A stretch of DNA of 64,000 nucleotides from Ectocarpus siliculosus (lineage: Eukaryota > Sar > Phaeophyceae > Ectocarpales > Ectocarpaceae). The position numbers were made by a program, and so were the translations under genes. This document shows, in pieces, positions 6,001-64,000 of the stretch. The stretch covers positions 372,001-436,000 of the forward strand of contig FN649729.1 of the NCBI GenBank assembly GCA_000310025.1, read 5' to 3'. Positions within the stretch are counted from its first letter, which is position 1; each line of letters begins with the position of its first letter. Below the pieces are notes generated by a model that did no database searches, was not told the DNA's origin, and saw only the letters and a list, made by a program, of their open reading frames with translations.

Positions 6001-9000
6001 GTAATACTTGTTGGTGATTTAGTTTTGATTCGGTGTTACCTTTGCCCAAGTCTACGCGAACGTGACAGCAGTTAATTTCTCACCAACGGAGATGGCAGGG
6101 TACAGCAGCCACGAAACTGTGTCGCCGTCTCCCGCCGAAATCATGTTGCTTTCGTCGCTAGTGTTGGCAAATAGCGGAGAAGCCGTGGCCGTAGCAGTAT
6201 TGATGATGTGGACGCTGTCCACGTTTGCTTGCGTTAGCGTGTGGGTTCCGGTGCAAGAAATCGCCTCGTCCGTGGGGCAGAGTGTGCTAGAGGCTAGGGA
6301 ATCGACAACAACGGAGACACGACGAAGGATTCGAGGGAGGGAATCAGGGTTATGAACCCCGTACAATAGTTTGTATTTGTTGCTTCAGCATTGGTCGGGA
6401 GTCGCTGGGACGTGTGGTCGCCTCATACGCGTGCCCATTGGTGTGTAGTCCCCTCCACAAAACCGGTGACCTTTGAGCGTTGAATGGGAATTTACGCTTT
6501 CGATCGTGCGGGGGGGTCATCCAAAGACATTCAGGTGCCATGCGATTCTCCCTCTTCGACATGGAAATTCTTGCCTAACTACATACTTCACACACCAGCA
6601 ACGACCCACTGCCAACCCACGCGCACATAACCACGACCAGGAGGCCATAGGGTACAACCAGAAAGTATAAGATGTAGGGCCGACAACTGCTGATAACAGA
6701 GTGTCACTCGGCGTAGCTTACCTGACCCACAGTCCAAGCCTCCGTCCACAAGTAGTTCGGAAATTTTGACATCAGTCAGGCAGGTGTTGCCTGAGTTGAA
6801 AACTTGGGTGGTGTACAAAACTGTATCACCTTTCCGAGTCTTCCCGTCTAATGAATTCACCGTGTGCACACTTGAGAGGACTGTAATTGTGAGGGTGCGG
6901 AAGGCGGGGTCAAACACGGGGAGGGCAGTCGGGAGAGACGTCCGGTGACGAACAGGATTGGGCAAACACGTTGTCAATATCGTTGTACTTGCTTGCGAGC
7001 GGCGGCAGCAGCATGGTGTGATATTGATGTTGCTGTTGGTGCTAGAGAAAACCGTAGTACAGCAGGCTGTTTCGGCGAAGGAAAAGAAACAGCGATCCTA
7101 AACCGACATGCTGCGAAACCATCTGTTGTTAGTCTCTCGCAATCTCGCCTTATACGACTCTGGCAACTGAATAAAGACTCTTGGATCATCACGGAGTCGG
7201 CGGGGCAGATAAACCGAAGTACTGTCGGTTCTTGTATACTCACCAACGGAAAGTTGAGGGGTTTGGGAGACGTGTTGTGAGATCCTCGTCTGGCGGAAGA
7301 TGAGCTCTCCGTCTGGGTCTGTCGCCGTAACAGAAGCTGCACACACGATCTGTCATTACGACCAGCAAGAGAGAACATACCGTACGGACCATGGGTGAGA
7401 CAATGCACAATGGAACATTGCGGCATCGCAGGCGACTTGAAAAGGACCTCAAAATATGGTAGCCCACAACTATCGGGCACGAACGCAAATGACACAACCC
7501 ATTCACGGTTGTCTTGGGTGCTTCAAGGAGGAGGCAAGATCGTGTTCTACTCTACCTTTCCAGCATCGATGTCGTCTTGGGTGACAATGTAAGTGCCAGT
7601 GCACATCGCTCCCTCGCCAGCGTCGAGCTTCGCTCCAGAGTTCACGTCAGGTTCGCATGTCAACTCCACCTAAGCAGGCCAGGGTTAAAATTCGGTCAGG
7701 TTTGGATAGGTAGGTACTACAGCGTGCTTGAGTTTCTAAACCACGGGTCCCTCCAGATGCAATGACCACGGACGGAATGGAGGACTCGAGCACCGGCGTT
7801 GAGGGGCTGTTCTGGTCTCAACTTTGCATTCGATTGCCTTTTTCTCGTGTTCACCGTGCTCGGGTTTGCCTTCAAAGAAAGGAACCCAGTGCAAACACTA
7901 TATATCCCACACTGTCGCTCGAGGTAGGTGCATGTACAATTTAATAAGTACACGACACGTGATCCATTCCACTTTAGAAACCCACCTACCTTCGAATTGA
8001 CGGGTGTCACCGACGACAGGGTAACGGTCCCGTTGTTGTCAATATTTAGCGTGTAGGTGATCTCATCCCCCAAGGCAGAGGCTGCTCCGATTCCATCCAC
8101 GGGCAAGTATTCCGAGTTGTGCTCTGTCACATGAAAATCGAAATTTTTACAAGGAAGATGTCGGCAAGTTGTGCCCAGGAAGCACGGGTGTTGCGAGCGC
8201 AATCGAGGCCTGGCTAACGCCTTCCATGGCGAAGTGGTTGCTCGGGACGTGGTGCGCAGGATGCCATCAGGCGCTTTCTATTGCCTTCCATAAAAAAATG
8301 CAACTGATAGGCCAGAGAACATTGGGGTGCAACGGCACTCACCGATGAGGAAGGCAGACTTTCCCTCTAGCGGAACATGCAGACGGTATTGATCGTCCAA
8401 GGGTTCGTCCCCGATGGCCGTCTTAGCCGTAACCCCTATATCGTGATCGACATGACCATCGTTCATGTTCTCCTGGGTCACGTGAACGACCGCTGTGCAC
8501 GTGAAGGTGTGCCCCTCTAGCGGGCAGAATAGCTCGTCGCCTGGATACATATGCGACAACAATTTGGAGGCGCCAAACAGTTTTCGGGGGTTCTGGTTTT
8601 CCCATGAAGCTCAAAAGGACCCAGGCAGTCAGTGAAGTTGGACTTCCTCGACGTAGGTGGGGCGTTGCACAGATTTCCTGGGTCGATCTTCGGGTAGGCA
8701 AAATAGAATATTCCATGATGTGGTGCGGACACATGATTAGGGAGCATGCGGCATGGGGGTGACCCGAAGGCATGAACAACATACGCCGTGTTCATGCACC
8801 GCTGGCATGTACTGTGGGGATTGATCTTATGAATAAATGCACAGTGATAAACGCCCCAGGGTATGGCCAGGCGATTTGTGAATACCATGAGGTTGAAGTG
8901 GAGGCACTGGTGTGTGTTGCAATTGAAAAGAGACGAGCGATGCACCCTCTGTTTTCCTCGAGAGGCGCTACACGCAGTGTCTCAGTGATAAACAACTTCT

Positions 9001-12000: not shown

Positions 12001-15000
12001 GATCGCCGCAGACAAGATGAGGTAACAGGGCTAGGGAAAACTGCAATTTACCAACAGTGCCGCACTGCAACAAAACATGAGCGCTTCTTTGATGTGTTGC
12101 ATTTCGGCCGTGCGCCTTCAAGAGTTTTTTGACACTGCAATTGGAAGAAACAATCACCCGGTGCGCTGCAGAACCGAGAAGTATCCATTGATTCCTGCGT
12201 ATTTTTTCGGAGTTTTGTTGGAGCTTGTTCTCAATTCATCACCCGCCGACCACCTACCACTATATATTTTTCACCCATTGGCGTATGTACCTCGGTTTGA
12301 CCAACCGCGGACGAGAATGTACAAGTCAGCGAGCTGCCCCCCCGAAGACCGGAGTCCGGGTAACGCGCGAGACCTTGGATTTTCAAGGACTCGTACGTCA
12401 GGGTTAGCTGGCCGTCCTCGGTATCTGCTTCATCAGTCATGGAACCTCCATCGACGTCCTCGCACGTCAACGCGCTTGTGATGCCGGCACCGTCTCCCCA
12501 TGCGGCGACATAGATGTCGAATACTTGCAGCAGACCGGTGTTGGTGACCGTGAGCACATAGGAAACAGCATCAGATGTTGCGGCCGCTTCGAGGGGAGTT
12601 GCCGTTTTGGGATATGACGCGGTGATGACGAGCCTAACGGAGCCCTCCTGGTTTCAGCGTAAGGTGCACAACGAACAGAGGAGCCGCAGAAGGAGTGGGA
12701 GTAGAATCCCGACCAGCAGTGCAATTTCGATGGGACGTCGTCAGCGACTTGGTTTTCTTGTTTTTCAATCATCGGAAGTGATACCTCTCTTTTGATCCGT
12801 TTGGCCAACCACTTGGTAGACTGCGGCCTCATTGGGTGGCTGTTTGGTTGTTGGTCATGTATCAAAGCACCCGAAGAAGCAAGAGGTTCCCCGTAGTATT
12901 GAACCCCGGAGGGTGACACAGGCGATTCACATCGAAACAACGTGTTTCAAAGAAGTCCTTTCATTCACCAACGATTCGAGTTCCAAGATATCGTCCCTAG
13001 AACGTAGATATGTGTAGCTAGCACGTTCCCAACACTGAGGCATCTCCGACAATCTACCTAAAGAATGGTACTTGAACTTCGAAAACCCATCACATCTCAA
13101 AGGTATCTTGTATAAACACACCGCAGGGAGTGACGGAAGAACATTACCAACGTCGAAGTCATCACGCGCTCACGCACGCACCTGATCAAGGGATACGACT
13201 GTGGCATCGGCTGCGTCAACCGCGTTTCCGCTGACATCGCTGGCCGTCACCGATGCCGCCGACGAGACCTCGAGCGCGTTGACGTTGTCCTCGGTGATAG
13301 CATAGCTCGAATTACACGTGATCACCGCACGCACGGCCAGAGTACCACCAACGGTGATAGAAGAAGCGTTTCTAGACGCTATCGCGGTGTCTCCGCATGT
13401 CGTTGTGGACGAAATGCCTGTCGAGGGTGGGGAGGTGCACACTGTTGTTCAATTTGTTTTTGTCTATCCGCCATGTGAAGGGGGCCGTGACTTGGCGATG
13501 TCACCATGCCGCCAGAAAAGACAAGCATTCTAAGTTCTGGGATGCAAGCTGCCGCAGAGTGTGGAATGTATGTGTCAGAGTCCATCACATGGGTTCAAAT
13601 ATATGTCATTGGCATCATTCACATTTCCGGTTGTACCAAGAACTCTGCGATTGCCCACCAAACATCTGTTGAGATGAAGTTGCTGCTGTTGTATATCGCC
13701 AACATAGTAGTATGCCGTGACTAGGGACATAGGGGAAACACAAACTTCACGTACCTGCATTTGTGCCCCCGTCTGCCAGGGTTATCCCCTCTAAAACTGC
13801 ATGCCCGTTGTTTGTGATCGTGAAAACGTAGCTGCGTGTAGTATTCAGACAGCATCATCCAGGGGGCACGGTGGCAAAACATTAGAGAATGTAGAGGGCA
13901 GGATCAAAGGAGCGGTCAAATCATGGAGCTATACAATATAGACTGTTCCTACAGGAGCAAAACGGTGAAAGGTATGGTTCAGTACAGCGCAAAACAGTAC
14001 CCACTGTAGCCAGGGCAGAAACAAACATCGACAAATACGACAAAGACCAACAGAAAAAACTACACTACCAAAAACCACGGAGACAACTACAACCGCAACG
14101 ACGGGCATGCTCAGCGAACAGTCGAGAAGAGAGTCTGATAGCCGATACGTAGCCAGTATTCTTCGAGGCCCTCCGCCCCACCTTATCATCTCCCCCACGT
14201 CCGCAAGTCCCTGCATCCCGTCTGCGCTGTCATCGGCGAATGTCCCCACCATATCTGCAGGCGAATCAATGGAAAGTTCGAGTTCACTCAAGCATCCTCG
14301 AGAGACCTCGACGATTGATGCGGAGCCGACGCCGGGTCCTTGAAACCGCATCCCGGGAAATGCAAGCTCCACCAAACTTAGTTTGCCACTGCATGTTAGA
14401 CCCCAACGTTGTTTCCGATATGTGTTTGCAGCGAACGACGCTGTCCCGCGTGTTGTCACGAGACGAAAACCACTGATTCGCAGTGCACCTTGTTTTGAAA
14501 CCATGAACACATGTGATGCCTACTGTACTACGTAGCCAAACCGAGCTCAATCTCACCGAGTTGGATAGACGGAGGCGGGGGAAGGTCGATGGATACCGTT
14601 GTCTGCGAGGGAACAGGAAGCCCCAACGTTGCGTCAACGGAGTGAACCCTGTAGAGGCAGACACCAAATAGATGCAGAAAGTATCACCAGGCGCCCGAGT
14701 ACGTTCGGAAAACAAGAGCAAGAAAGCGAGAAGGGGCAACAATGTTCTTCATCTGCGCTTGACGGCTCTGCAAATCTTGGCTTTCGAAACGCACAGCCAT
14801 TTGCCTCGTATGATGGAAAGTTCTTGTGACTACACGTCAAGCGCATGGCATTGAAAGTGTCCTTGATGAATGATAGATACAACCAGCATGCACGATAGAA
14901 GAACGTTCACCTTGAAACAGTGGTAAGTCCGCCGGCTTCAATCGCCGCCCAGTTGAGGACAGATAAACCAGAACATCCGGCAGACTGGCCAGGTTCCGAA

Positions 15001-57000: not shown

Positions 57001-60000
57001 CAAGTCAACTATCAGCTGGGCCTGCAACATTCGGCATAGCAGCCTCTGTCCGGACTGACTGGACCTCGTACCTAGCAAGAGTCCATTTTCGCGACTCAGT
57101 GGAAGGGTCATGGTGCCCTCGGCGTTAACTTCCTCCGATTGAGCATCGGTCGCGGTGACCATGGCGACCATTTCCACCGCACCAGCATCGATTTCGGCCT
57201 GGGTGACCTGCTCAACAAGCGGCAAAGCCAATCCTTCAAGTACCGAAAACATCTAAGTACCTGATGTAGGGCCATATGTGATGAACAGTGAGCGCATGAT
57301 GGCTCGGACATGGTACACTCAGGGGTGACTCTACCGCAAGCACACCCAACTACCACAGGTGCCACACTCTCATATCTAGCAATAACGATATCACCAACAA
57401 GGAGTAGAAGCCTTTTTGCAGGGCGAGACATCCTCACCAACGAAGCGAATGAGCAGACGAAGGAGTCGCCTGGTGGAAGCTTGCCGTTGTCCGACACTAC
57501 ACACGCCAGGCAATCCTCGCCGAACTTTTCGTCAATGACGCAAACGTTTGAAAGTGTCGTGGTTCCCCTGTTGGTAACGTTATAGGTCCTCGTCAGCGTT
57601 TCGCCCGCTACGTGGTGGCCTTCCTCGCCGTCCACCCAGTCCCCGTTTACAGCTGGTGAAGTGTGATGAGGAAACGTATACATGAAACGAATCAAAATCG
57701 TTCGTTGGAATCACATAAAAGTTTCCGGGGAACCCCTTTGTAGCAAGGCTTGTGGCAACAGCGCGCGGGGAAATGGGTTGCTCAAATCCTGAATGTGCCT
57801 CCTACCGTTTATTATAGTATTCATGCTCCCCACTTTCGAATTTGCTTGCACACGCAAACATCACTGTCACAAGCGCAAGATGTAGTCGCGTGGGCTCACC
57901 AACGGTCGTCGAGGGAGTCCCGGGAAGAGCCACAGTTTTGCTAGCACTATCCGCGACATCTGGCCCATCCGGTTCGCCGGGACTTGAAGCAGACACGGTA
58001 AACGTGTTTTCCACGTGACCCCTGTCCATATCGGCTTGCTTGACGATGTACGTGCCTGTGCACGCCATAGCCTCATCTTGGGGGCAGGTACCTGGACGAT
58101 GGGACGTCGGGGCGTTGGTGTCAACCCCGGTATACAGCGTTTGGAAAGGGGTCTCAAGGCATGTTCCTGATGGACAAGCTTTGCTTGAATCTCCATCGTT
58201 TGAAATACCACATGCCTACCAGGCGGGGGCGTACCTTTGTAGGGCAGCTGGCAGGACGTGCTGAGCGTGTCGGCCAGGACTATCTGGTACAAGCATGTCG
58301 TGCCAGTGTTGGTGATGATAACCTCATACGTAATGATGTCTCCCGTACCCAGGATACCGTCCGCTCCATTTGAGACGGATTCATCCATCTCTGCCCAACG
58401 ATCGATGAGAGACCGACCGTCGACAAACATGGCGGACAGATCGCAGGCAAAGTATTTCAGTATGGTGACATCAGCTCATGAGAAAGAATAGAAAATATGA
58501 TGGTGGCACGGTGGTTCTGTACAACCAGATGGTGAACACCAAATACTGCTCTTCGCTGCGCATGGAGCTAGCGCAACATGCACCGAACCTGATACATCTC
58601 ATGGTTCTTGGACGGGTTGGTAACGATTTGACCGGCGATCCCTATCAGCACCTTCAATCACAAGTGGGATGCTCCACAATCCACTATCCAAAAGAGATGT
58701 CGATGGCAGTGGCAAACACCTGTCCCGTTACGTTTATCTTTTCAACAATCCTGACATTGCTTACAGCTGAGTACGAACTGAGCAGCTCACCAACCAGTAC
58801 TGTGGATGCCGGCGTTAACTCGTGCCACAACGTCGCCTCTCCTGGCGTACTTCCCAGAGGGCTGGTTGTGGAGACCTCTGCTACCAGGTTCACCCCGGCG
58901 GCGTCCATGTCGTCTTGTTGTACCTGCAAAACAGCGCAGTCGGTTGCCGAAACGATGCGTGTGCTGGCAGGTAGGCAACGAGCTTATCGTTTGACACCAA
59001 AGACGATGCAAGCAACTTACTAGTTCAACGGATGTCACCATTCTCACCTCATATACCGCCAAGCAGTTGACCGTGCCTTGAGGCGCCAGTTCCAGCCCGG
59101 CGAGGTTAGGCTCGCACGATATCTCCGCCTCGTCTGATATACCACTTTTACAACAGAAAAGGGCAACGCATGGCTCATCAAACGGTGTTTTGCTCTGTAC
59201 TTGGGCAGTGAACAAACGACTCGACAAATATATCAACTGCAAGATAATACACCCGTCATCACCACGGACATTCACCAAGTTCTCGTAACTCCATATATTC
59301 ACCAAGCTTGCGGTAGGACTCCTCTGATGCATCTGACAATGTGGGTGAAGGTCTGGGTCTTGGTTGACAGCGCCGTTCTGGCGGCTGCCATCCCTGCGTC
59401 TATTGAACCTTCCTCACACGGCACGTACCAAGAAGATGTGGCAAGGTACTGTTCGACGTATCGTACCTCACTAACTGTTCCAGCAGCTGCGTGCTGGCGA
59501 CGCTCACTGAACTCAGGGTGGTGGTGCCAGTGTTGACCAGACTGATCTTGTACTTGATCGTGTCCCCTGCAGAATCTCCCGCAACACCCGCATCGTTTTC
59601 GGCTATGGTGGTCGTAGATACCAAAACTGACCCAGTGCGGTTGAGGGACTGGACCGCGGTGTCTGTATCTGTGACAGGACTCCCATACGCCGAGGAACCG
59701 ATCACGCTGCGGAGAGAATAACCCGATCAGTGTCAACGGTCGGAGCGGTTTGCAAAAAGCGGTATTCGTTTTGTAGTTCATGGAGTCAAACCCTTCTTGT
59801 CTTCCAAGTAGTACGGCAGGAACACCTGTTCTGTGTTTTTCTCGTGAAACAGCCTACGATAACGTGCCAGAATCGCGTCAGCCAAAACACTGCTAGGTGC
59901 GCTCATATTTATGTTCCGAGGCATGAGAAAAATCTCCTGCTCGACTGCAGGAAATCGTGTCGGGTGCCTAATTGTTGCTTTCTGATTGCTCACCTCATTG

Positions 60001-63000
60001 TGCTGCCGACTGAGCCAGTATCGATGTCAGGTTGCGTGATGATATGGGTGGCGGTACATTGGAACAGAGCGTTGACCACCCAGGTTTCGGGGGGGGTGCC
60101 GTCTGCACACTCGAACGAAATAATTCCTGCGATCACAAGACGCACGATATTGATGCAACATGTAGTGTGAGCGATTCCTACTAGACGGAGCGACATCAGC
60201 GCGAACGAAGGGGCTTCTGGCCCAAAAGAGACTAACTCACGTCGGGATATACCCATGAGATGAAGCGCTTTCGCTCAGAGGTGAACAAACCGACAAAAAC
60301 GTGGGAGGCTAATAGAAACCCGTAGCTGGTTAGGAAGGCGTCTGGCCGCATGTTGTTTGGACAACTTCGTCTGCGTAGTGAATAATTCAACACGTAAAAT
60401 CGAGACAGGCTCACCATCATCGGATAACTCGACGTCGTGAACGTCGACATTCCCGACATTGTCTGAGGACATCGTAAACTTTATAGGCTCTCCAACACCG
60501 GCCAATCCGGATGTTGCGTTCGCCGGGTTGTAGAGCGCCTCATTTTTGACCGAAATGGCAGGATCCTGAACAGGTGAAGCGATAGCATGATTATCACAAG
60601 GGAGGGAGGCCGCGGCATCAGACGCTACCTCGCCTTCTCGGTACAAAACTATTGTCTCACTAGTGCGCAGAAGGCGACCAAAGCAAAATATGCGGCATGT
60701 CGTACTACTTTGGTGTTTTTGTTTGGTTCTTGGTTGATTCGCTGTTCTTACTCTTAGGCGTTCGACCTAACTATACCTGAATCAGAGGGACTGTGGACAA
60801 GAAAGGCATACTCTCGATGGCCTCGTCCTCCAAGACGTCCGCGCTACTCTCGTGGAATGCAGTGGCCTTGACGCTGTCTACCTTCTCTCCTGAGTTGATC
60901 TGTGTTGGTCATAAGCACGGTAACGTCATGGGCGGAGTAGTGGGGTCGAGAAGGAAAGCTCACGACACCAACGAAACGCAGGCACGACATGCTCAGATTC
61001 CACCCCAAAATGCTGCCCACGACACAACATTTCCTTGAAAACCACCGCGTATCCCGTGACTCTGAAGTTACTTTCAAGGGCGACAGAGGGGGTGCTGCTG
61101 TGAAATCCGTTTCTTGTTTGGCGTCGGGGCAACACGGTGACGTATTCCTCGCACCAAATACAGTGCAGCCATCACGTCTGTCTATGTAGGTTTTCGATCT
61201 GTTCCTGATAATATCTCGTCGGGGATGTATGATTACAAAACAATCTCAATCCGCCTAACCTCTGCCCGCGTAACAGTGCCCGTTGCCCGGCATTTCAAAT
61301 ATGCAGCGGGAGCCAGACCCTTGCTGGGGTAGCGGGCGAGCCCGTCCACTCTCCCGTTCAGCGCGCCACCAGCATCCCGGCCATCGGTGTCCACGCAAAC
61401 CATGGCCATGAGGCCCTCCGCTTGAACCGTGATGTTGTACAGGGTCAGCAGACCATCATTGGTGATGGTGTACACGTAGTCGATCTCGTCTGCAGTAGTG
61501 GCGGCTAGACCCTTATTGGCGTAGGTAGACTTGAGGAGGAGATCAACAGACCCCACCTAAAGAAAAGAAACGTGGTGCGGGGAAAACATTTGTCTGTACC
61601 ACTGCACATGACTTTCGAGCGGGTTCATGAACAATTCAATATGAAGTATATATTGTCAGGGGTTAGATTATTCCGCGAACACCAACCTGCACCTGAGACC
61701 ACAACAACGTAGCTTTGTGCAGGGAACACAACTCGCAGAGGAAACGCCTTCGCCTTCTGTCTGCCACTGTTTGTATGCTTACCTGCTCGAACATCACAAC
61801 TGCTGTGGCTGCTGCCGACACCTCCTTGTCGTACTGGTCCACGGCTGTCACGATTCCGCCACTTCGCCTCTCAAGGTTGTCCACGTCCGTCGCCGTGAGC
61901 ACATGCGTTCCGTTGCACGTAACCACAGAGTCCAAGCTGAGCGGCGAAGGCAACACTATCTCGCTGCCGTCAACAATGAACGCCACGTCACAGTCCAGCA
62001 CCGAAGAGCCGTCTGCGGTGCCGCGCGCGACAACAAGCGTGAGAGAGGAAATCGTACAGGGAATGAGCGTGGTGTGTTTGTTGGTTGATGTTTCCCGGGA
62101 CATTCTGAGCTGGAGGGAAACATCAGAGAAAGGACAGAAAGATGCGCTCTATTCTGTCTGACGGACGGCCCGAAGATGCTGGACATCCAGGTCCGCACAC
62201 CGTGACCACAATTCAACGGTGGATTACGCAGCTCCAGACGTCTACATTGACCCTTGCGGTTTGGTCCGGGAACAAAGTTCGCCACTTCGAGCGACAAGGG
62301 CAATCATCTAGCGGCGCATGAAGCGCTAGCGGCCAGAGGAACACCCATCACCATGAACGCCACGGGGGGCCGACACCCTCGTTTTCGTCACCTGAGACAA
62401 GAGAAGGGTCGCTGAGTGTGGTGTTGTACAGGACGGCATGCCCAATGTTCGTGATCGTGAAGGAGTACCTGGGAAGAGATAGCAATGCAAGAACATTGCG
62501 ACAACAAACCCGATAGAGATGAGTATTGTTTCTTTTGGCTGGTGTGTCCATGTCGGATAGGTAAGGTTGCCGACAGAGCGCGGCAAGTTGACACATCGTC
62601 TCGAGAAACAGCTGCCCTCCTCTTTTCCCTCCCCGAAAAGAAATGCTGACCGAACGGCAGCCGTGTCTTGTATCAACTCCAGCCTGAAACCCGCAAGAAC
62701 AAAATATTTTCCATATTATATTTTACCCACCCTACACTTTCTCCCGCCACAGCAAGTCCGTCGTGGTGAGAGTCATCCATGAAGAGTCCTTTCATACCTG
62801 AAGGAAAAGGCGTTCGTATCCCACGGACGTAGAGCATGTCAAATGAGTCGTACGCGGTTTCCTCGAAGGCCATTTCCGTAACGAGTCGGGGCATTACAAA
62901 CTATTTACTCCAGTTCAAAATATTTGTTTTCGGCGTGGATTCCTGCTGCGCTGTCGACAAGACAGGTGTCACATGAAATTGGCTATTCACCCCTGCTGGA

Positions 63001-64000
63001 TTTATGGGCATGATCCATACCCAATGAGATGGAGGGAGGTGGCTTGAGGGATACCACCGCAGTAGCGTCGTCCGTGACGGGTTCAGCAGAGGCTGGACCA
63101 GTGGCAGACACCCTGTCAGTACATATTTCGGCAAGGAAAAGTAATATGCGGATATTGTATGGGGAACTCTTGTTTTCATGATCGATCGTCCGATGCAGAT
63201 TGCTCGTCGGCTGTTTCGCCCCTTCTGGCAAGGGATTTCAAAAGAGTGTGAGCTATTGTATCAGCCGCCTGCTGAGTTACACAACATGTCGTCTACGAAA
63301 CCTGCCTACGTACATTGGCTTTCACGCGTACAAGAATGTCTCGCGTGTCGCGTGAAGTCACCTGACGGTATTCTCCGTTGCGCCGCTGTTGATATTTAGC
63401 CACGTGAGCGAGAAAATCCCCGAGCACGAAAAGCCACTACCCGCTACCATCGTGTCCACCATGTCACAGTCGTCCACGACCGCAGCGTTCGCCACAGTTA
63501 CTGACGTCAAGTCGACGTTTCCAATGTTGGCCACCTGGTCGAAAAGCGTCATCTCGTCACGATTTGCGCTGGGGCTAGATTGTCCTTGTCGCAGAGAAGA
63601 AAAAACGCCGCGGCCACTCTTCTTTCTTTCGAAGCGTTGTACGACAAGAATGCATCAGGCAGTTCGAGGAACCTAGCTACAACACGACGAGCTTGTACGA
63701 CTCGGTGAGGCAAATGGAACCAGGAGAAAGGAACTTGCGACAAGGCGGATGTGCACAATACAGAGGGCCAGTGGCAAAACAGAGGGCCAGTGGCATCAAA
63801 CGCGCTCAAGAAATGTTTTGCAGGCCAACGGTCTGCCGATCTCTGGCGAAACATTCATGCCGACGTCAGCAAGGTCCAAAGGGCATCAATGTGCCACCTG
63901 ACACGACATTTACTGGTTCACTCGTTGCAAATTCCTAGTCTTTGGTGCACCTGGAATGTGTACGTGACCGTTTCAAGCTTGTCCGCGTAGCCAACCATAC
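1..64000 (-). CDS. Giant multi-exon gene for a DUF7507/DUF11-repeat protein, open at both ends
   Basis: I see 129 exons that join in frame from 64,000 down to 159. Every junction has a matching phase, with GT-AG borders except six GC-AG donors. The joined product has about 55 copies of an immunoglobulin-like beta-sandwich repeat with an N-x-G core, a C...LAPG...C pair, a TQxDxDxG turn and a PSISxG end. This pattern is the DUF7507/DUF11 (TIGR01451-type) repeat known from prokaryotic surface proteins. The paired cysteines suggest an oxidising, extracellular location. No signal peptide, membrane segment, enzyme domain, start or stop lies inside the window, so the true protein is longer than the roughly 6,790 residues seen. 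Introns range from 159 bp to 924 bp. Those above 500 bp (12,648-13,181; 23,827-24,461; 25,145-25,701; 26,017-26,539; 32,305-32,928; 38,995-39,918; 41,181-41,697; 43,239-43,797; 48,977-49,629) contain nothing I recognise except the transposon in the longest. A role as adhesin or wall component is inference. It could also be two adjacent genes, but no break in frame supports that. Confidence 0.85.
159..774 (-). CDS. Tail module T6, last seen in the window
   Basis: Exons are 686-774 (89 bp) and 159-306 (148 bp). The first reads CAWQDGAERDGLPDPGEV and LIYTV. The second reads NTGSVTLTDGSLQQSTDL, VVDCMNAIPSAGNAS and LMAPGDN, ending between codons at GAT-AAT/GTGAGA. The second cysteine, the DxDAG turn and any stop codon must lie beyond the left edge. 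Bases 1-158 show no exon. Confidence 0.76.
995..2242 (-). CDS. Tail module T5; GC donor
   Basis: Exons are 2,128-2,242 (115 bp), 1,669-1,793 (125 bp) and 995-1,135 (141 bp). The first reads SDGNSVADAGEYTRYTMV; its acceptor GAGCAG is chosen by phase. The second reads TGMLTVHQITVVESLEGG and CPKNYLEMAESMVCNATY, ending at a GC donor (ACGCAG/GCAAGT). The third reads EDVDRGDVTSVTTLDAF and ends PQDPSIL. Confidence 0.76.
2541..3736 (-). CDS. Tail module T4
   Basis: Exons are 3,562-3,736 (175 bp), 2,899-3,023 (125 bp) and 2,541-2,651 (111 bp). The first joins EDSWKQEYTQLAMALLN to TVDDEADIHDKMEYTVEI and NTGTVTLTDVG without the intron found at that place in other modules. The second reads CPGATLAPAESMVCNASY and TDIDRYE. 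The third reads VETTADVTASGPFAQAVG and ends SVSLLM. Confidence 0.78.
4139..4805 (-). CDS. Tail module T3
   Basis: Exons are 4,618-4,805 (188 bp) and 4,139-4,276 (138 bp). The first reads NDEDGDELGDAGETMFYT and NIGNVRVGNVRVSHLQG, with an internal doubling of GNVRV. The second reads LLPGIEFGCRATYSLTQ and ADVDAAEVVNTASISGV. It ends at GAG/GTATGA, before the usual PSISxG segment, which instead opens the next exon. Confidence 0.78.
5047..5639 (-). CDS. Tail module T2
   Basis: Exons are 5,537-5,639 (103 bp) and 5,047-5,303 (257 bp). The first reads SGAKLPYSGDNLGFTFTL and NKGTGSLT. The second covers the cysteine pair CTPSVTEALVLAPGGIVLC, LTQDHIDGGALTSEM and an end segment GLSVG in one exon. The intron lies within the 'GSLT-SVSL' strand. 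It fits no class closely. Confidence 0.8.
6084..6880 (-). CDS. Tail module T1 (n,o-like)
   Basis: Exons are 6,722-6,880 (159 bp) and 6,084-6,293 (210 bp). The first reads NSLDGKTRKGDTVLYTT and NSGNTCLTDVKISELL; the second reads LCPTDEAISCTGTHTLTQ and INTATATASPLFANTSD, ending PAISVG. The 'NTCL' core, the 'LCP...CTGT' start and both lengths match classes n and o, so this looks like an extra n,o unit where class s is expected. Confidence 0.84.
7244..8123 (-). CDS. Module E7 (optional classes p,q,r), last in register
   Basis: Exons are 7,990-8,123 (134 bp), 7,556-7,669 (114 bp) and 7,244-7,349 (106 bp). Class p reads ASALGDEITYTLNIDNNG and TVTLSSVTPVNSK. Class q reads CEPDVNSGAKLDAGEGAMC and YIVTQDDIDAGK. 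Class r reads VCAASVTATDPDGELIF and ends PQLSVG. After this exon the order of classes breaks. Confidence 0.86.
8343..9222 (-). CDS. Module E6 (classes n,o)
   Basis: Exons are 9,061-9,222 (162 bp) and 8,343-8,540 (198 bp). Class n reads NGADGVVNVGDEVTLAY and NTGNTCLGNVVVDNPS. Class o reads LFCPLEGHTFTCTAVVHV and ENMNDGHVDHDIGVTA, ending SAFLIG. Confidence 0.86.
9420..10647 (-). CDS. Module E5 (classes k,l,m)
   Basis: Exons are 10,408-10,647 (240 bp), 9,888-9,978 (91 bp) and 9,420-9,555 (136 bp). Class k reads EDGDGERGASPGDLIEHE and NTGTVTLTHLSVVDSLL. Class l reads CTPSLLGLSLAPGAEVSC. Class m reads VSQDDVNAGVVSSEATIS and ends DGIDIG. Confidence 0.86.
10914..11642 (-). CDS. Module E4 (classes i,j)
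   Basis: Exons are 11,477-11,642 (166 bp) and 10,914-11,043 (130 bp). Class i starts DPLAGITKTFVFTPAR and carries NDGNVDLSDITVTDERF. Class j reads NWESDTSFGMLPGAELHC; it seems to keep only one cysteine of the pair. It ends ITQADIDAGVVASNV. Confidence 0.84.
11784..12647 (-). CDS. Module E3 (classes g,h)
   Basis: Exons are 12,291-12,647 (357 bp) and 11,784-11,900 (117 bp). Class g reads GSVRLVITASYPKTAT, NTGLLQVFDIYVAAWG and GLARYPDSGLRGGSSLTC; it is 42 bp longer than in B, C and D because of an acidic insert around MTDEADTEDGQ. Class h reads INTGTKSAGAQVTAWYED. Confidence 0.86.
13182..14254 (-). CDS. Module E2 (classes d,e,f)
   Basis: Exons are 14,182-14,254 (73 bp), 13,755-13,831 (77 bp) and 13,182-13,417 (236 bp). 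The peptides are VGTFADDSADGMQGLADV, FTITNNGHAVLEGITLAD and CNSSYAITEDNVNALEVS with ASDVSGNAVDAAD. Class f has the same length as in copy B. Confidence 0.86.
14557..15629 (-). CDS. Module E1 (classes a,b,c)
   Basis: Exons are 15,463-15,629 (167 bp), 14,911-15,086 (176 bp) and 14,557-14,648 (92 bp). Class a holds SWANAGNGSDGFADAGDT and is about 75 bp longer than elsewhere; its acceptor (TTGTAG) is chosen by phase, and a nearby one is possible. Class b reads VTNAGNVRLANVTISD with CDDMPESSEPGQSAGC. Class c ends PPPPSIQLG. Confidence 0.78.
16108..16681 (-). CDS. Module D11 (classes y,z)
   Basis: Exons are 16,464-16,681 (218 bp) and 16,108-16,243 (136 bp). Class y reads GSWVDSNGDEDTDAGEV, NVGTVTLNSVVLTDGSV and CESGIPDSLLPGEGFEC. 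Class z reads IVQDDVDRGFVVSNATV and ends PAISLG. Confidence 0.86.
16995..18080 (-). CDS. Module D10 (classes w,x)
   Basis: Exons are 17,667-18,080 (414 bp) and 16,995-17,082 (88 bp). Class w reads ADIDAGSISDTASVVSL, VVDAGDTVEYRITVANTG, NTWLSDVAVSDPMFGDG and CSNSYIGNLSRFSPGATF, then HIDGRCVESTAN. Class x reads VSAVASDSTMVSEGVS and ends SSLSLG. Confidence 0.87.
18208..18711 (-). CDS. Module D9 (classes u,v)
   Basis: Exons are 18,569-18,711 (143 bp) and 18,208-18,300 (93 bp). Class u reads FTGSDANRAEVGQGVAY and NTGSTTLTGLDVNSVF. Class v reads CGASSLSELARDDTIVC and DHAITQ. Class u is 18 bp longer than in the other copies. Confidence 0.83.
18988..19729 (-). CDS. Module D8 (classes s,t)
   Basis: Exons are 19,503-19,729 (227 bp) and 18,988-19,123 (136 bp). 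Class s reads DSWIDNDGDGDCDPGEGI, NTGTITMSGLQVSDGLL and CGESPAGGYLAPKSSITC; its acceptor is a less usual CGAG. Class t reads INQGDIDLGHVSNTAIVN and ends PEISLG. Confidence 0.84.
20057..21219 (-). CDS. Module D7 (optional classes p,q,r); GC donor
   Basis: Exons are 21,089-21,219 (131 bp), 20,518-20,628 (111 bp) and 20,057-20,162 (106 bp). Class p reads GYPSPGDAVVYTITITN and GSLTLHDVTPDSPQ, ending at a GCAAGT donor. Class q reads CELAEGAALVPGVETKC and LVLTQNNLDEAQ. Class r reads VVTTVTITATDSANELV. Class p has the same length as in copy C. Confidence 0.85.
21548..22439 (-). CDS. Module D6 (classes n,o); GC donor
   Basis: Exons are 22,272-22,439 (168 bp) and 21,548-21,739 (192 bp). Class n reads TDGVVNAGDTVLYSFTV and NTGQTCLAVLSVLDDN. 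Class o reads LFCPAESVFTCTQSLTIT and NDMDVGGFSGNVIVTA. Class o ends at a GCAAGT donor after GGGCTAG. Confidence 0.85.
22863..23536 (-). CDS. Module D5 (classes k+l fused, m); GC donor
   Basis: Exons are 23,233-23,536 (304 bp) and 22,863-22,995 (133 bp). The first exon holds both the core (DSDDTNGPSSGDMISY, NNGTTTVWSIVIDSGF) and the cysteine pair CSPPLESLELGPGGKTEC, which lie in separate exons in the other four copies. It ends at a GC donor (ATCAG/GCGAGT). Class m reads MDQDNLDAGVVTNSVVV. Confidence 0.85.
23697..24612 (-). CDS. Module D4 (classes i,j)
   Basis: Exons are 24,462-24,612 (151 bp) and 23,697-23,826 (130 bp). Class i starts APVLGVEKTFSLMGES and carries NDGNVDLVDVALTDAM. Class j has CNDGALSTLVVGDSFSC and ILQSNVDAGSMGST, ending in phase 2. 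Confidence 0.85.
25028..26016 (-). CDS. Module D3 (classes g,h)
   Basis: Exons are 25,702-26,016 (315 bp) and 25,028-25,144 (117 bp). Class g reads VGSVAAKAAFTYADST, NAGLLTLFDINVHSVY and PYPEGGLVPGRSIEC. Class h reads INVRDLPVDVRTTAMYEG and ends HVTLRQ; the tryptophan of 'AWHES' is methionine here. Confidence 0.86.
26540..27515 (-). CDS. Module D2 (classes d,e,f); tandem acceptor
   Basis: Exons are 27,443-27,515 (73 bp), 27,087-27,157 (71 bp) and 26,540-26,802 (263 bp). The peptides are SDFVDGGGDNANSLADVG, YEIVLENDGHAVLSSVY and CRGTYVLTPDDVDALETV with ADKFGKEV. Class f has two in-frame acceptors 9 bases apart (exon ends 26,802 or 26,793), which would add or drop three residues. Confidence 0.83.
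27717..28579 (-). CDS. Module D1 (classes a,b,c)
   Basis: Exons are 28,488-28,579 (92 bp), 28,069-28,244 (176 bp) and 27,717-27,817 (101 bp). Class a is AVWADGSGVGGLVDGYADE. Class b reads IANSGNVRVTNMELFHEG and CEHPSFFYPADDAYEC, then GWADIEAGGLNTS. Class c ends LPPPSIDIG. Confidence 0.85.
28803..29398 (-). CDS. Module C11 (classes y,z)
   Basis: Exons are 29,172-29,398 (227 bp) and 28,803-28,941 (139 bp). Class y reads GKWTDGNGDGDADPREI, NTGSVSLYNLKVESDT and CPTFPESGIAPGVTVTC. Class z reads LTQHDIDQGAVVTIANV and ends PGISLG. Confidence 0.86.
29829..30828 (-). CDS. Module C10 (classes w,x)
   Basis: Exons are 30,415-30,828 (414 bp) and 29,829-29,919 (91 bp). Class w reads ADIDSGESTSAVVVKAMP, QTIVDAGDTMNFTMSV, NVGNTWVSAIVVLDPF and CSPDLSASDSRFAVGA. 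Class x reads VTAIPPISTDTVEASS and ends PRITLG. The w length is identical to that in copy D, including the unusual N-T-W in the core. Confidence 0.87.
31310..31848 (-). CDS. Module C9 (classes u,v)
   Basis: Exons are 31,724-31,848 (125 bp) and 31,310-31,420 (111 bp). Class u reads YMGNADRASVDDEVMYS and NNGTTTMSDIQIVDSM. Class v reads LSCNASLASISPGASINC. The v acceptor (CACGAAG) lacks a clear pyrimidine tract, so its start is less certain. Confidence 0.78.
32169..33137 (-). CDS. Module C8 (classes s,t)
   Basis: Exons are 32,929-33,137 (209 bp) and 32,169-32,304 (136 bp). Class s reads REDGDGEDRIARPLEQ, NNGTVTLTNLTVADTV and CSELSLSPGESFPC. Class t reads IDQDDVDNGEIINNAIVES and ends FGIAIG. Confidence 0.86.
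33411..34435 (-). CDS. Module C7 (optional classes p,q,r)
   Basis: Exons are 34,305-34,435 (131 bp), 33,907-34,026 (120 bp) and 33,411-33,513 (103 bp). Class p reads DDQEGLATVGDSITCL and NSGSVSLWSIEVISPV. Class q reads CERDEDEGEKTLALDE and YIVTQGDIDSGF. Class r reads VVTDATVKADSPLG and ends RPSVSIG. The cassette enters and leaves in phase 1, so it can be present or absent without disturbing the frame. Confidence 0.86.
34797..35600 (-). CDS. Module C6 (classes n,o)
   Basis: Exons are 35,442-35,600 (159 bp) and 34,797-35,000 (204 bp). Class n reads KDGVLNAGDVIEYSLDV and NTGNTCLMDIHVTDDT; its acceptor ATTAAG has little pyrimidine tract. Class o reads MFCPQDDPYTCIGTYVIK and DMDAGGYSTTSRATSVSP, ending ASISVG. 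Confidence 0.84.
35767..36769 (-). CDS. Module C5 (classes k,l,m)
   Basis: Exons are 36,530-36,769 (240 bp), 36,097-36,190 (94 bp) and 35,767-35,899 (133 bp). Class k reads DSDGVHGASSGDIIEYN and NTGTTTLNTTVVWDPI. Class l reads CTPPLTGLILNPGSIVIC. Class m reads VQQTDVNGGFVESTLTV and ends SSIELG. All three lengths equal those in copy B. Confidence 0.87.
37014..37548 (-). CDS. Module C4 (classes i,j)
   Basis: Exons are 37,395-37,548 (154 bp) and 37,014-37,143 (130 bp). Class i starts DPGWAIEMTAEHVPADQ and carries NTGNVDVARVTMLDTAG. Class j has CSDGIPDPWLVGGMFAC and YSITQADIDAGVVSNIV. Confidence 0.86.
37768..38484 (-). CDS. Module C3 (classes g,h)
   Basis: Exons are 38,170-38,484 (315 bp) and 37,768-37,884 (117 bp). 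Class g reads VGSVHVLLGRTYDKLG, NNGLLDLFDIAIEDNT and GLATYPDKGLAPATSLTC. Class h reads INDGVQLASIQVQAWHES and GEVFSNATVTTKLTP. Confidence 0.86.
38762..40300 (-). CDS. Module C2 (classes d,e,f); GC donor
   Basis: Exons are 40,231-40,300 (70 bp), 39,919-39,995 (77 bp) and 38,762-38,994 (233 bp). The peptides are FLDNFDPKDDQAEAGEEI, INNGHAVLSDIVVNDP and CSYIHVLTADDVNELERK with RDEHDYQVE. Class e ends at a GCAAGC donor (CTCAG/GCAAGC). The 924-bp intron that follows holds a short inverted-repeat transposon. Confidence 0.84.
39288..39809. mobile_element. Short non-autonomous DNA transposon (MITE-like), TA-flanked
   Basis: About 520 bp lies between imperfect terminal inverted repeats: CTGTAAAGTGCGTG on the left and, read in reverse complement, CCGTAAAATGTGCGTG on the right. 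Each end abuts a TA, as in elements that duplicate TA. Inside there are several copies of GCGCCGGGGTGCG or its complement and a partial direct repeat (about 39,345-39,440 against 39,700-39,760). No open frame suggests a transposase. It sits in the 924-bp intron between classes e and f of copy C, and nothing similar appears in the same intron of the other copies. Confidence 0.6.
40591..41783 (-). CDS. Module C1 (classes a,b,c)
   Basis: Exons are 41,698-41,783 (86 bp), 41,008-41,180 (173 bp) and 40,591-40,679 (89 bp). Class a is TATWEDSGESGMTDYADK. Class b reads NTGNVDLSNTGVSHPGV, CPTVATLGPGEKFSC and LSWVDIDAGILDIAAT. Class c ends KKPPSVDIG. Confidence 0.86.
42110..42930 (-). CDS. Module B11 (classes y,z); GC donor
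   Basis: Exons are 42,722-42,930 (209 bp) and 42,110-42,245 (136 bp). Class y reads AWVDENGNGRPDAGEAV, NKGTVTLVSLSIADSL and ends ECVPIQQ. Class z reads VTQQDLNAGVVNFTASV and ends PSIEIG, where the donor is GCGAGT rather than GT. The frame and the phase of class a of copy C both require this site. Confidence 0.84.
43151..44229 (-). CDS. Module B10 (classes w,x)
   Basis: Exons are 43,798-44,229 (432 bp) and 43,151-43,238 (88 bp). Class w reads EDINAGYVHNTVILEGW, DSAYSDEGDSATFQVT, NTGNAVLSSVKPTN, DSEFLPSSHPSG and CEVTVPLTASYIDAGGF. The stretch FLPSSHP is shared with class w of copy A. Class x is VTAVDPDNRPVRDQQTT and ends LASISIG. Confidence 0.86.
44707..45214 (-). CDS. Module B9 (classes u,v)
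   Basis: Exons are 45,090-45,214 (125 bp) and 44,707-44,802 (96 bp), the same lengths as in copy A. Class u reads SYTGSNLAAGLGDTVSY and NDGTTTMSRLTVEDTA. Class v reads CDPKLVDLDVAPGTAVHC and GYSITQ. Confidence 0.84.
45527..46255 (-). CDS. Module B8 (classes s,t)
   Basis: Exons are 46,041-46,255 (215 bp) and 45,527-45,662 (136 bp). Class s reads STWADGDEGDGLANIGEK, NDGTTSLVSFCITSSS and CSEADALSPGANFTC, with two further cysteines (GCQAC) just before that pair. Class t reads VQQTDIDAGQMVTTVDIS and ends NVLAIG. Confidence 0.85.
46552..47350 (-). CDS. Module B6 (classes n,o)
   Basis: Exons are 47,186-47,350 (165 bp) and 46,552-46,734 (183 bp). Class n reads NDILEAGDSIIYTIKV and NTGNTCLQELVVSDLLLG. 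Class o reads LCPQASAVTCMGEYIITQ and DDGAIQNVGTVSCVDSEG. As in copy A it joins class s without p,q,r. Confidence 0.85.
47596..48976 (-). CDS. Module B5 (classes k,l,m)
   Basis: Exons are 48,737-48,976 (240 bp), 48,198-48,291 (94 bp) and 47,596-47,728 (133 bp). Class k reads DSDTIIGESAGDTVEYT and NEGTTTLSAIAVSSSL. Class l reads CDPVLDSFQLAPGGTIEC. Class m is VEQGHLDVGGIGNDVVV and ends ANVTIG. The chosen acceptor of class l (GCACAG) satisfies the phase-2 donor of class k; a nearer CTGCAG does not. Confidence 0.85.
49630..50139 (-). CDS. Module B4 (classes i,j)
   Basis: Exons are 49,980-50,139 (160 bp) and 49,630-49,759 (130 bp). Class i starts EPGVLVTVNATHTPSD and carries NIGNVDLTEVAVTGSLFEG. 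Class j has CGSGIPDRWEVNTEFTC and YIITQENIDAGRLANVA, ending in phase 2. Confidence 0.85.
50397..51303 (-). CDS. Module B3 (classes g,h)
   Basis: Exons are 50,989-51,303 (315 bp) and 50,397-50,513 (117 bp). Class g reads VGSVRMETSHAYPKET, NNGLLSLYNISMRDSV and GLARYPDAGLTPTSKIFC. Class h reads INSGVKESNQEVQAWHES. Class g has exactly the same length in copies C and D. Confidence 0.86.
51528..52330 (-). CDS. Module B2 (classes d,e,f)
   Basis: Exons are 52,264-52,330 (67 bp), 52,028-52,104 (77 bp) and 51,528-51,763 (236 bp). The peptides are STFQDDLPADGKAETGET, YTISNDGHAVLYGVTIKD and CTGTYKLTAEDIHNLSRA with KDQYGYEVG. The intron between d and e is 159 bp, the shortest in the window. Confidence 0.85.
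52791..53931 (-). CDS. Module B1 (classes a,b,c)
   Basis: Exons are 53,846-53,931 (86 bp), 53,375-53,547 (173 bp) and 52,791-52,882 (92 bp). Class a is TATWQDGAAGGMDGYAD. Class b is VTNTGNIDLTDASLASS with CGDLEDLAVGEIFTC, and has WPDVVSGWSNN in place of the usual DIDAG turn. Class c ends KKPPSISIG. The intron before class c carries a 2 x 36 bp tandem duplication. Confidence 0.85.
53006..53077. repeat. Tandem duplication, 2 x 36 bp, intronic
   Basis: Two adjacent 36-bp units begin AAACTGATGTGAAAAC and differ at three positions. They lie in the intron between classes b and c of copy B. No coding or splice role is apparent. Confidence 0.85.
54213..54949 (-). CDS. Module A11 (classes y,z)
   Basis: Exons are 54,741-54,949 (209 bp) and 54,213-54,348 (136 bp). 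Class y reads SGTWEDADGSECANAGENV, NEGIITLGALNVEDV and CEEPESGLLGQGEEYKC. Class z reads VTQAEVNAGRVTKEASVSG. The donor of class y (CAG/GTTTGG) is weak but is the only phase-matched site. Confidence 0.83.
55176..56056 (-). CDS. Module A10 (classes w,x)
   Basis: Exons are 55,628-56,056 (429 bp) and 55,176-55,263 (88 bp). Class w is the largest exon class. It finishes one module (DDVDAGFVFSETAVEAW), then holds a full core with GIDPTYSDAGDTATFD, NTGDTRLNQVLLTDEM and LTHANVDAGSISGMAK. Class x is VTSMSPSNTSISGNSF and ends WASVSFG. The intron inside the second half falls after the DxDAG turn. Confidence 0.85.
56323..56816 (-). CDS. Module A9 (classes u,v)
   Basis: Exons are 56,692-56,816 (125 bp) and 56,323-56,418 (96 bp). 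Class u reads YTGDPYAAYFGNTITYT and NSGTTTLSKLQLTHTK. Class v reads CTPALDDLLLGPAAVVSC and GYTITQ. I chose the acceptor TGAATGCAG over a later GAAGAG because it gives 125 bp, the length of class u in copies B and C. Confidence 0.82.
57072..57652 (-). CDS. Module A8 (classes s,t)
   Basis: Exons are 57,438-57,652 (215 bp) and 57,072-57,207 (136 bp). Class s covers the whole core in one exon: GDWVDGEEGHHVAGET, NRGTTTLSNVCVIDEK, then DCLACVVSDNGKLPPGDS. Class t is VTQAEIDAGAVEMVAMV. Both lengths are identical in copy B. Confidence 0.85.
57900..58390 (-). CDS. Module A6 (classes n,o)
   Basis: Exons are 58,235-58,390 (156 bp) and 57,900-58,091 (192 bp). Class n reads NGADGILGTGDIITYEV and NTGTTCLYQIVLAD; the extra cysteine in 'N-T-x-x-T-C-L' marks this class. 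Class o reads CPQDEAMACTGTYIVKQ and DRGHVENTFTVSASSPG. Class o ends in phase 1 and joins class s directly, with no p,q,r. Confidence 0.85.
58791..59706 (-). CDS. Module A5 (classes k,l,m)
   Basis: Exons are 59,467-59,706 (240 bp), 59,048-59,144 (97 bp) and 58,791-58,923 (133 bp). Class k closes the preceding module (SSAYGSPVTDTDTAV) and opens the next (NDAGVAGDSAGDTIKY, NTGTTTLSSVSVAS). Class l holds CEPNLAGLELAPQGTVNC. Class m is VQQDDMDAAGVNLVAEVS. A GTGAGG donor lies 9 bases before the one chosen for class k, but only the chosen site keeps the phase. Confidence 0.85.
59994..60565 (-). CDS. Module A4 (classes i,j)
   Basis: Exons are 60,415-60,565 (151 bp) and 59,994-60,126 (133 bp). Class i starts DPAISVKNEALYNPA and carries NVGNVDVHDVELSDDG. 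Class j has the cysteine pair CADGTPPETWVVNALFQC and ends THIITQPDIDTGSVGST in phase 2. The rest of this module continues into the first half of the next exon. Confidence 0.85.
60777..61556 (-). CDS. Module A3 (classes g,h)
   Basis: Exons are 61,260-61,556 (297 bp) and 60,777-60,899 (123 bp), both starting and ending between codons. Class g runs VGSVDLLLKSTYANKG, TNDGLLTLYNITVQ, then GLARYPSKGLAPAAYLKC. Class h runs INSGEKVDSVKATAFHES. The h exon is 6 bp longer than the 117 bp seen in the other four copies. Confidence 0.85.
61783..62797 (-). CDS. Module A2 (classes d,e,f)
   Basis: Exons are 62,731-62,797 (67 bp), 62,392-62,468 (77 bp) and 61,783-62,012 (230 bp). Class d is GLFMDDSHHDGLAVAGES. 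Class e is FTITNIGHAVLYNTTLSD. Class f holds CNGTHVLTATDVDNLERR and AVDQYDKEV, ending at donor CAG/GTAAGC. In this module the usual 'TQADVDAG' turn is replaced by 'LTATDVDNLE'. Confidence 0.85.
63021..64000 (-). CDS. Module A1 (classes a,b,c), first visible
   Basis: Exons are 63,951-64,000 (cut by the window), 63,362-63,534 and 63,021-63,112. Class a ends MVGYADKLETVTYTF with donor CAG/GTGCAC. Class b reads VANIGNVDLTSVTV, then a cysteine pair (DDCDMVDTMVAGSGFSC) and LTWLNINSGATENT. Class c gives VSATGPASAEPVTDD and ends KPPPSISLG with a phase-1 donor. Class b has the same 173-bp length in copies B and C. Confidence 0.85.
63760..63795. repeat. Tandem duplication, 2 x 19 bp, intronic
   Basis: ACAGAGGGCCAGTGGCA occurs twice with a period of 19 bp, inside the intron between classes a and b of copy A. 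The first unit is followed by two extra adenines. It looks like a simple recent duplication. Confidence 0.8.

Follow-up and report, generated by a model that had tools for sequence, protein, structure and literature searches.

The window analysed here, a 64,000-nucleotide stretch of the Ectocarpus siliculosus genome, is traversed on its minus strand by a single spliced frame of 126 curated exons. The frame encodes 6,662 residues without a stop codon, and neither end of the gene lies within the 64-kb window. The gene model is a prediction, based on a gene finder purpose-built for the window. The finder combined codon scores, splice-site scores and self-similarity with no class information and returned 135 exons, and a second run, with a module profile, returned 131. 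These two runs replaced a first run that had over-split the region at 499 exons. Identical forms of 85 of the 126 curated exons are present in the class-blind run, and 114/126 are present in the class-blind or the profile run. The other 12 exons were placed by hand, with the class lengths partly in view. The 125 predicted introns have a median length of 303 bases (range 124-924), and all carry AG acceptors (CAG in 106). GT donors were assigned to 119 introns and GC donors to six (42110, 39919, 23233, 21548, 21089 and 1669 in window coordinates, each AG|GCRAGY); all six GC donors were placed by hand, the automatic runs behind the final model having permitted GT only. The encoded protein is acidic (D+E 14.2%, K+R 3.7%) and contains N-glycosylation sequons at chance level (52 versus 58.5 expected).

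The features of the locus, all on the minus strand, are as follows.

995-63534, minus strand: curated part of the gene, from gene finder and hand curation.
62731-63534, minus strand: fragment of a preceding block copy, classes u, v and w, with exon lengths of 173, 92 and 67 that match other copies.
52264-62468, minus strand: block copy 1, classes a-w, 23 exons (curated model).
40231-52104, minus strand: block copy 2, classes a-w, 23 exons (curated model).
27443-39995, minus strand: block copy 3, classes a-w with l split and an extra module MX, 26 exons (curated model).
14182-27157, minus strand: block copy 4, 25 exons, one of them fused, with an extra module MX (curated model).
7244-13831, minus strand: partial block copy 5, comprising the 14 exons of classes a-m, after which the order differs (curated model).
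995-6880, minus strand: array tail, five modules in another order (curated model and module comparison).
6084-6880, minus strand: first tail module, nearest to class M5 including the extra cysteines (module comparison).
62392-62468, minus strand: marker exon a of copy 1, 77 bp, encoding N-x-G-H-A-V-L, placed by hand.
52028-52104, minus strand: marker exon a of copy 2, 77 bp, in both automatic runs and the curated model.
39919-39995, minus strand: marker exon a of copy 3, 77 bp, with a GC donor, placed by hand.
27087-27157, minus strand: marker exon a of copy 4, 71 bp, in both automatic runs and the curated model.
13755-13831, minus strand: marker exon a of copy 5, 77 bp, in both automatic runs and the curated model.
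32169-33137, minus strand: extra module MX of copy 3, two exons (curated model and module tree).
18988-19729, minus strand: extra module MX of copy 4, two exons (curated model and module tree).
23233-23536, minus strand: fused exon g+h of copy 4, its end placed by hand at a GC donor (curated model).
57900-58390, minus strand: class M5 module of copy 1, with four cysteines (module alignment).
37768-38484, minus strand: class M2 module of copy 3, with an insert bearing the GLA-YP--GL motif (module alignment and class signatures).

Other genetic elements are sparse. No tRNA was found in the window, Rfam gave no match there at the gathering score, and just two short tandem repeats are present. An intronic tandem repeat at 53006-53083 has a 36-base unit in 2.2 copies. 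The CpG observed/expected ratio in introns is 0.97. Open frames run opposite the gene on the plus strand (for example at 28501-29484), the longest of 327 codons. A search for nested genes, in which 10 long plus-strand frames were compared to Pfam, gave no match at E<=0.01, and these frames are probably shadows of the coding strand.

The protein comprises 54 modules of about 115-145 residues that resemble DUF7507, distributed along the array as 1 incomplete module, then 10, 10, 11, 11 and 6, and a tail of 5. Twenty-three exon classes, a to w, recur along the array, and the blocks of copies 1-4 measure 1,227, 1,234, 1,376 and 1,361 residues. The first-pass annotation had described five copies of a block of 23-26 exons and 10-11 modules. 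This holds for copies 1-4, which have 23, 23, 26 and 25 exons and, respectively, 10 modules (copies 1-2) or 11 (copies 3-4); the fifth copy is partial and ends after module 6. The limit placed on the array at 7,244 had to be abandoned, since modules reach the low edge of the window and a fragment of an upstream copy lies at 62,731-63,534. The last curated exon is at 995-1135, and weaker exon calls reach base 159-200. Calls at 686-750 or 765 together with 159 or 200-306 resemble one further module, indicating that the array extends past the low edge of the window; these calls (159-306, 686-750 or 765) and a few isolated short ones were omitted from the curated model. The low ends given earlier for the marker exon are exact (62,392; 52,028; 39,919; 27,087; 13,755), with spacings of 10,364, 12,109, 12,832 and 13,332. 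The near-fixed, class-specific exon lengths are likewise reproduced in the curated model. The 240 bp class measures 240 in 4/4 separate exons, the copy 4 version being fused to the next exon. Over the five copies, the 133 bp class measures 133, 133, 133, 133 and 136, the 77 bp class 77, 77, 77, 71 and 77, the 117 bp class 123, 117, 117, 117 and 117, and the 315 bp class 297, 315, 315, 315 and 357.

Repetition at two levels is evident in DNA, exons and protein. Self-matches between open fragments at E<1e-3 numbered 236 pairs for the minus strand, whereas the plus strand gave 18 and the reversed sequence 3 (80, 2 and 1 at E<1e-6). The offsets in DNA peak at about 10-13 and 23-26 kb. A dot plot of the protein, with the maximum score of one shuffled protein as the cut-off, displayed the two sets of diagonals that had been predicted for it: strong ones at 1,220-1,259 and 1,360-1,399 residues, with multiples of the block offset within 2,460-2,759, and weaker ones at 100-139. 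Exons from the class-blind run were equal in length in 32/187 same-class pairs compared to 51/5,565 of all pairs, and agreed in length modulo 3 in 150/187 compared to 1,842/5,565. Within-class variance of exon length was 900, against 6,122 for shuffled classes (minimum 4,038 in 2,000 shuffles).

Comparison of the modules placed the stronger resemblance between modules at the same place in the block. Of the 49 modules that have a class mate, 47 found their best match within their own class, and only the two MX modules did not. Local alignment scores averaged 168 for same-class pairs (89 pairs), 82 for neighbours (53) and 82 for other pairs (1,289). Best-match lags over the 54 modules were 10 (20 modules), 11 (14), 20 (6) and 22 (5), with none at lag 1, and the lag z-scores were 1.24 at lag 10, 1.03 at lag 11 and -0.15 at lag 1. 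A module tree, several branches of which are long, grouped the modules by class and not by neighbourhood, as had been proposed. The class label requires 11 changes on this tree (minimum possible 10) versus 37.3 when shuffled, with 0/200 shuffles as low, and the copy label requires 38. A single branch separates each of M1, M2, M3, M4, M7, M8 and M10 from the rest of the tree, whereas two label changes are needed for each of M5, M6, M9 and MX.

The intron positions bear on the order of events. For classes a-k and n-w, 97 of the 98 expected introns are present, with one phase per class over all copies (95 identified by script, plus the two flanking the fused exon of copy 4). The sole missing intron is g/h of copy 4, in the fused exon g+h. 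This supports the earlier proposal that introns were already present in the block when it was copied. The companion proposal, that the duplications are old, is supported by a mean identity of 29.7-36.3% between copies 1-5 and by the absence of intron similarity between copies (0 pairs at E<1e-3). At the DNA level, 19 exon pairs matched at E<1e-3, and just 7 of these joined exons of one class, so that the evidence for class relations comes from protein. In the aligned modules, the intron columns are the same for most classes and scattered by a few columns in some (e/f of M3 over 58-64; one j/k of M5 at 130 compared to 103). The place shared most often, in 27 modules, is the module boundary, with a phase-1 intron; next comes a phase-0 intron ahead of a conserved T-Q-x-D-I-D segment (13 modules of M4, M6, M9 and MX), and the remaining places are mostly specific to one or two classes. 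Shared boundary introns combined with class-specific others imply that the block was laid down first, that its modules then gained or kept introns, and that the whole block was copied afterwards.

The order in which the blocks were duplicated is less certain. One tree pairs copy 1 with copy 2 (95/95), although this grouping joins long branches. The M6 modules of copies 1-2 have the same intron place as MX, M9 and M4, and group with MX of copy 3 with support of 95/65. Topology tests rejected neither a grouping of all M6 modules (p-AU 0.302) nor one of M6 of copies 1-2 with MX (p-AU 0.189). It may be that M6 was lost, and MX retained, in copies 1 and 2.

We identified 34 class-signature columns, invariant within a class and rare outside it, compared to a mean of 0.28 and a maximum of 2 in 200 shuffles of the classes. 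M2 has the most (12, including the GLA-YP--GL insert) and M6 has none. M1 bears the G-H-A-V motif that had served as the marker in the first-pass annotation, and M5 has two extra cysteines in 5/5 modules, as does the first tail module. The retention of such place-specific features at about 33% identity suggests that the places in the block may differ in role. Against class-specific roles stand the lack of a signature column in M6 and the failure of M5, M6, M9 and MX to form clean clades. It is conceivable, though we doubt it, that the two-level pattern is the neutral outcome of unequal crossing-over between blocks, in which the block places have no separate functions and the fold alone has been kept. 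Module numbers that run 10, 10, 11, 11 and then into a broken copy are consistent with such a record, as is a bacterial array (L018) with a block-like signal at lag 7 (8/17 best matches), but 34 signature columns common to copies at 29.7-36.3% identity, together with the M2 insert motif and the extra cysteine pair in every M5 module, argue against it.

To place the modules in a domain family, 19 of the 54 were submitted to Pfam. All 19 match PF24346 at E<=0.01 (best 2.1e-20), confirming the assignment to DUF7507 made from the sequence alone; module M2 of copy 2 scored 26.3 bits, slightly below the curated cut-off of 27. The sister family DUF11 (PF01345) also matches 8/19 modules at E<=0.01, with 18.6 and 20.9 bits in two single-module tables against a cut-off of 24.6 and with DUF7507 scoring above it, and TIGR01451 matches 10/19. 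Only DUF7507, DUF11, DUF7617 and DUF7927 appeared at E<=0.01 in the Pfam scan of the 19 modules. According to PMC12617251, in which DUF11 is renamed CLIPPER and DUF7507 CLIPPER_2, a Lys-Asp-Asn isopeptide triad is predicted for both, some DUF11 members are without it, disulfides occur in 34.9% of CLIPPER_2 domains, and the family has a role in surface stalks. A profile search against solved structures gave no notable match (two at E 0.62 and 0.69). The AlphaFold2 model of one exon was weak (mean pLDDT 59.6, four strands), and a fold search with that one-exon model returned nothing at E<=0.001.

Among plasmid sequences searched by tblastn, the nearest relatives are giant bacterial proteins, 30-45% identical, from Sinorhizobium (44.2%, E 4e-17), Nitratireductor, Roseovarius, Loktanella, Roseivivax, Sulfitobacter, Streptomyces, a Chloroflexota bacterium and others. 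In a tree, one branch (SH-aLRT 76) separates the window modules from the 49 bacterial modules sampled, a result that, for this narrow bacterial sampling, would be as expected from one uptake followed by expansion. A viral origin was considered and set aside after a few single queries: three scans of viral contigs found no relatives, phage sequences gave no match to one stretch (blastn) or to one module (tblastn), and 0/19 modules matched PHROGs. At three of the bacterial loci (L014, L015 and L017), the array gene directly precedes a second large gene with a four-base overlap. These second genes are annotated as hypothetical, as a TonB-dependent receptor and as an outer membrane protein transport protein, and the overlap suggests a shared surface system. 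On the Chloroflexota plasmid (L003), a heliorhodopsin is annotated next but one feature downstream of the array.

We compared the isopeptide triad in an alignment of 153 bacterial modules from ten loci and 53 of the 54 window modules, the upstream-fragment module being omitted. The bacterial rows were kept by a span rule out of 176 passing the E limit and form a non-random set, having been found with window modules or, for L013, with a Streptomyces segment. The strict Lys-Asp/Glu-Asn triad is present in 136/153 bacterial modules and in 0/53 window modules; an earlier alignment with 77 bacterial modules agrees (61/77 versus 0/53). By position, the bacterial modules have Lys in 136, Asp/Glu in 153 and Asn in 153 of 153, compared to Lys in 9, Asp/Glu in 30 and Asn in 12 of 53 in the window. 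The cysteine pair shows the reverse distribution, occurring in 52/53 window modules versus 74/153 bacterial ones. Pair and triad are compatible, as 63 of the 74 bacterial modules bearing the pair keep the triad. Loss of the triad is not peculiar to the E. siliculosus gene, since the Chloroflexota array has it in only 1/6 modules. Taken together, the match to the family profile and the near-total absence of the triad indicate that this protein is, judged from its sequence, a family member but not an isopeptide domain, the crosslink having apparently been lost in nearly all modules and the cysteine pair fixed. It seems improbable that the modules still form isopeptide bonds, in a shifted register or from other residues. 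The acid position does retain Asp/Glu in 30/53 modules and the Lys position its residue in 9/53, and M5_c4, M9_c4 and M3_c5 (3/53) fit the triad once a slack of one residue is permitted; against this, the strict triad occurs in no module, and the Asn place is taken by Ser in 17/53 and Thr in 9/53.

The continuity of the chain can be judged at the block joints. Each joint falls inside module M1, which is encoded by exons w and a together, and inside a w/a intron of 159-350 bases that is in phase 2 in 5/5 cases. These short joint introns and the absence of a stop codon in 6,662 codons indicate a single gene rather than several. Although the single-gene model is itself a prediction, a tandem cluster in which each block is a gene of its own would have to break within a module and within these introns, and we consider it very unlikely. 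Least credible of all is an ordinary bacterial DUF7507 adhesin, brought in by contamination or assembly and taken for a eukaryotic gene: PMC12617251, the sole survey we found naming DUF7507, treats the family as bacterial and archaeal and discounts isopeptide-domain matches in eukaryotes as likely false positives or contamination, but the window DNA has the marks of a true split eukaryotic gene, with 125 predicted introns, AG acceptors, GT or GC donors and conserved phases, the fetched bacterial relatives read as single long open frames, and the copies are far too divergent for assembly duplicates.

The architecture and the loss of the triad are established by these comparisons and are best explained by a single very long eukaryotic gene encoding a giant chain of Ig-like beta-sandwich DUF7507 (CLIPPER_2) modules. 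A block of 10 or 11 different modules was copied as a unit at least four times with its introns already in place, and the old copies still have the lengths, phases, motifs and extra cysteines specific to their classes. In the interpretation that we favour, and consider fairly likely, the product is a giant filament, probably extracellular and stabilised by disulfides, with a super-repeat like that of titin, made from a bacterial-type domain minus its isopeptide bonds. The protein would be secreted or located on the cell surface, and a disulfide would lock each module in place of the isopeptide bond. The chain could form an elongated stalk or matrix filament, which at about 4 nm per module, as is general for Ig folds, would measure over 200 nm. 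The block may serve as a repeating address unit in which distinct modules bind partners at fixed intervals, much as the 11-domain super-repeat of titin does along the thick filament. The likeliest origin would be a bacterial ancestor of the domain, with one putative uptake and subsequent expansion. The cysteine pair, the acidic composition, the surface stalks of the family in PMC12617251 and, by analogy, the super-repeat logic of titin in PMC10665226 are consistent with a surface filament. The chance level of sequons, the weak structure model and the empty fold search count against this reading, as does the fact that the frame, whose two ends lie outside the window, showed no signal peptide, anchor or binding domain. 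A fuller scenario, which we put forward only tentatively, combines eukaryotic uptake of a bacterial CLIPPER_2 domain, replacement of isopeptide bonds by disulfides and addition of introns into an extracellular titin-like ruler with class-specific binding roles.

The filament gene shares its domain family, and tandem arrays in giant acidic proteins, with the DUF7507 fibrillar adhesins and surface proteins of bacteria and archaea; a Roseovarius relative, for example, is a 4,348-residue frame with 32 PF24346 matches. It differs from them in being split by 125 predicted introns and in its triad count (0/53 versus 136/153). The bacterial arrays are also characterized by resemblance between neighbours, whereas the E. 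siliculosus gene has a period of 10-11 modules. A lag-1 signal was positive in 8/8 bacterial arrays tested, yet weak in some (best matches at lag 1 in 0/13 modules of L015 and 3/23 of L001). The plasmid-borne array of Sulfitobacter sp. S223 (L018) is likewise of DUF7507 type and has a higher-order signal at lag 7 (z 1.0); it is bacterial, forms a single open frame in the fetched stretch and has the triad in 14/17 modules. Its block-like signal implies that block copying is not unique to the E. siliculosus gene. The combination of a vanished triad with a near-universal cysteine pair offers a natural comparison of two locks for the same fold.

The ingredients are known singly: prokaryotes have the domain, titin has the super-repeat, and L018 shows the block-like lag-7 signal. 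The first-pass annotation knew of no described eukaryotic DUF7507 protein with this build. In the open-access papers searched we likewise found no description of a eukaryotic gene with introns whose CLIPPER_2 modules lack the triad and form a super-repeat of 10-11 modules, but the two-level architecture as such is known from titin. PMC10665226 describes it for the titin A-band, with an 11-domain super-repeat in the C-zone and domains of the same place more alike than neighbours, most clearly in the central repeats. Titin and the E. siliculosus gene are both eukaryotic giant genes, of Ig-type modules in titin and predicted Ig-like modules in E. siliculosus, in which same-place modules resemble each other more than neighbours do. 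Titin mixes Ig and FnIII domains in the muscle cytosol, whereas the window modules are all DUF7507-like with a cysteine pair, and the Pfam scan of 19 modules contained no titin-type Ig or FnIII domain. The likeness is an analogy in working and is not taken as an identity of family. The E. siliculosus gene would add a second giant gene, apparently of independent origin, that expanded by duplication of blocks of 10-11 modules, and the comparison with titin opens the question of why blocks of such sizes arise.
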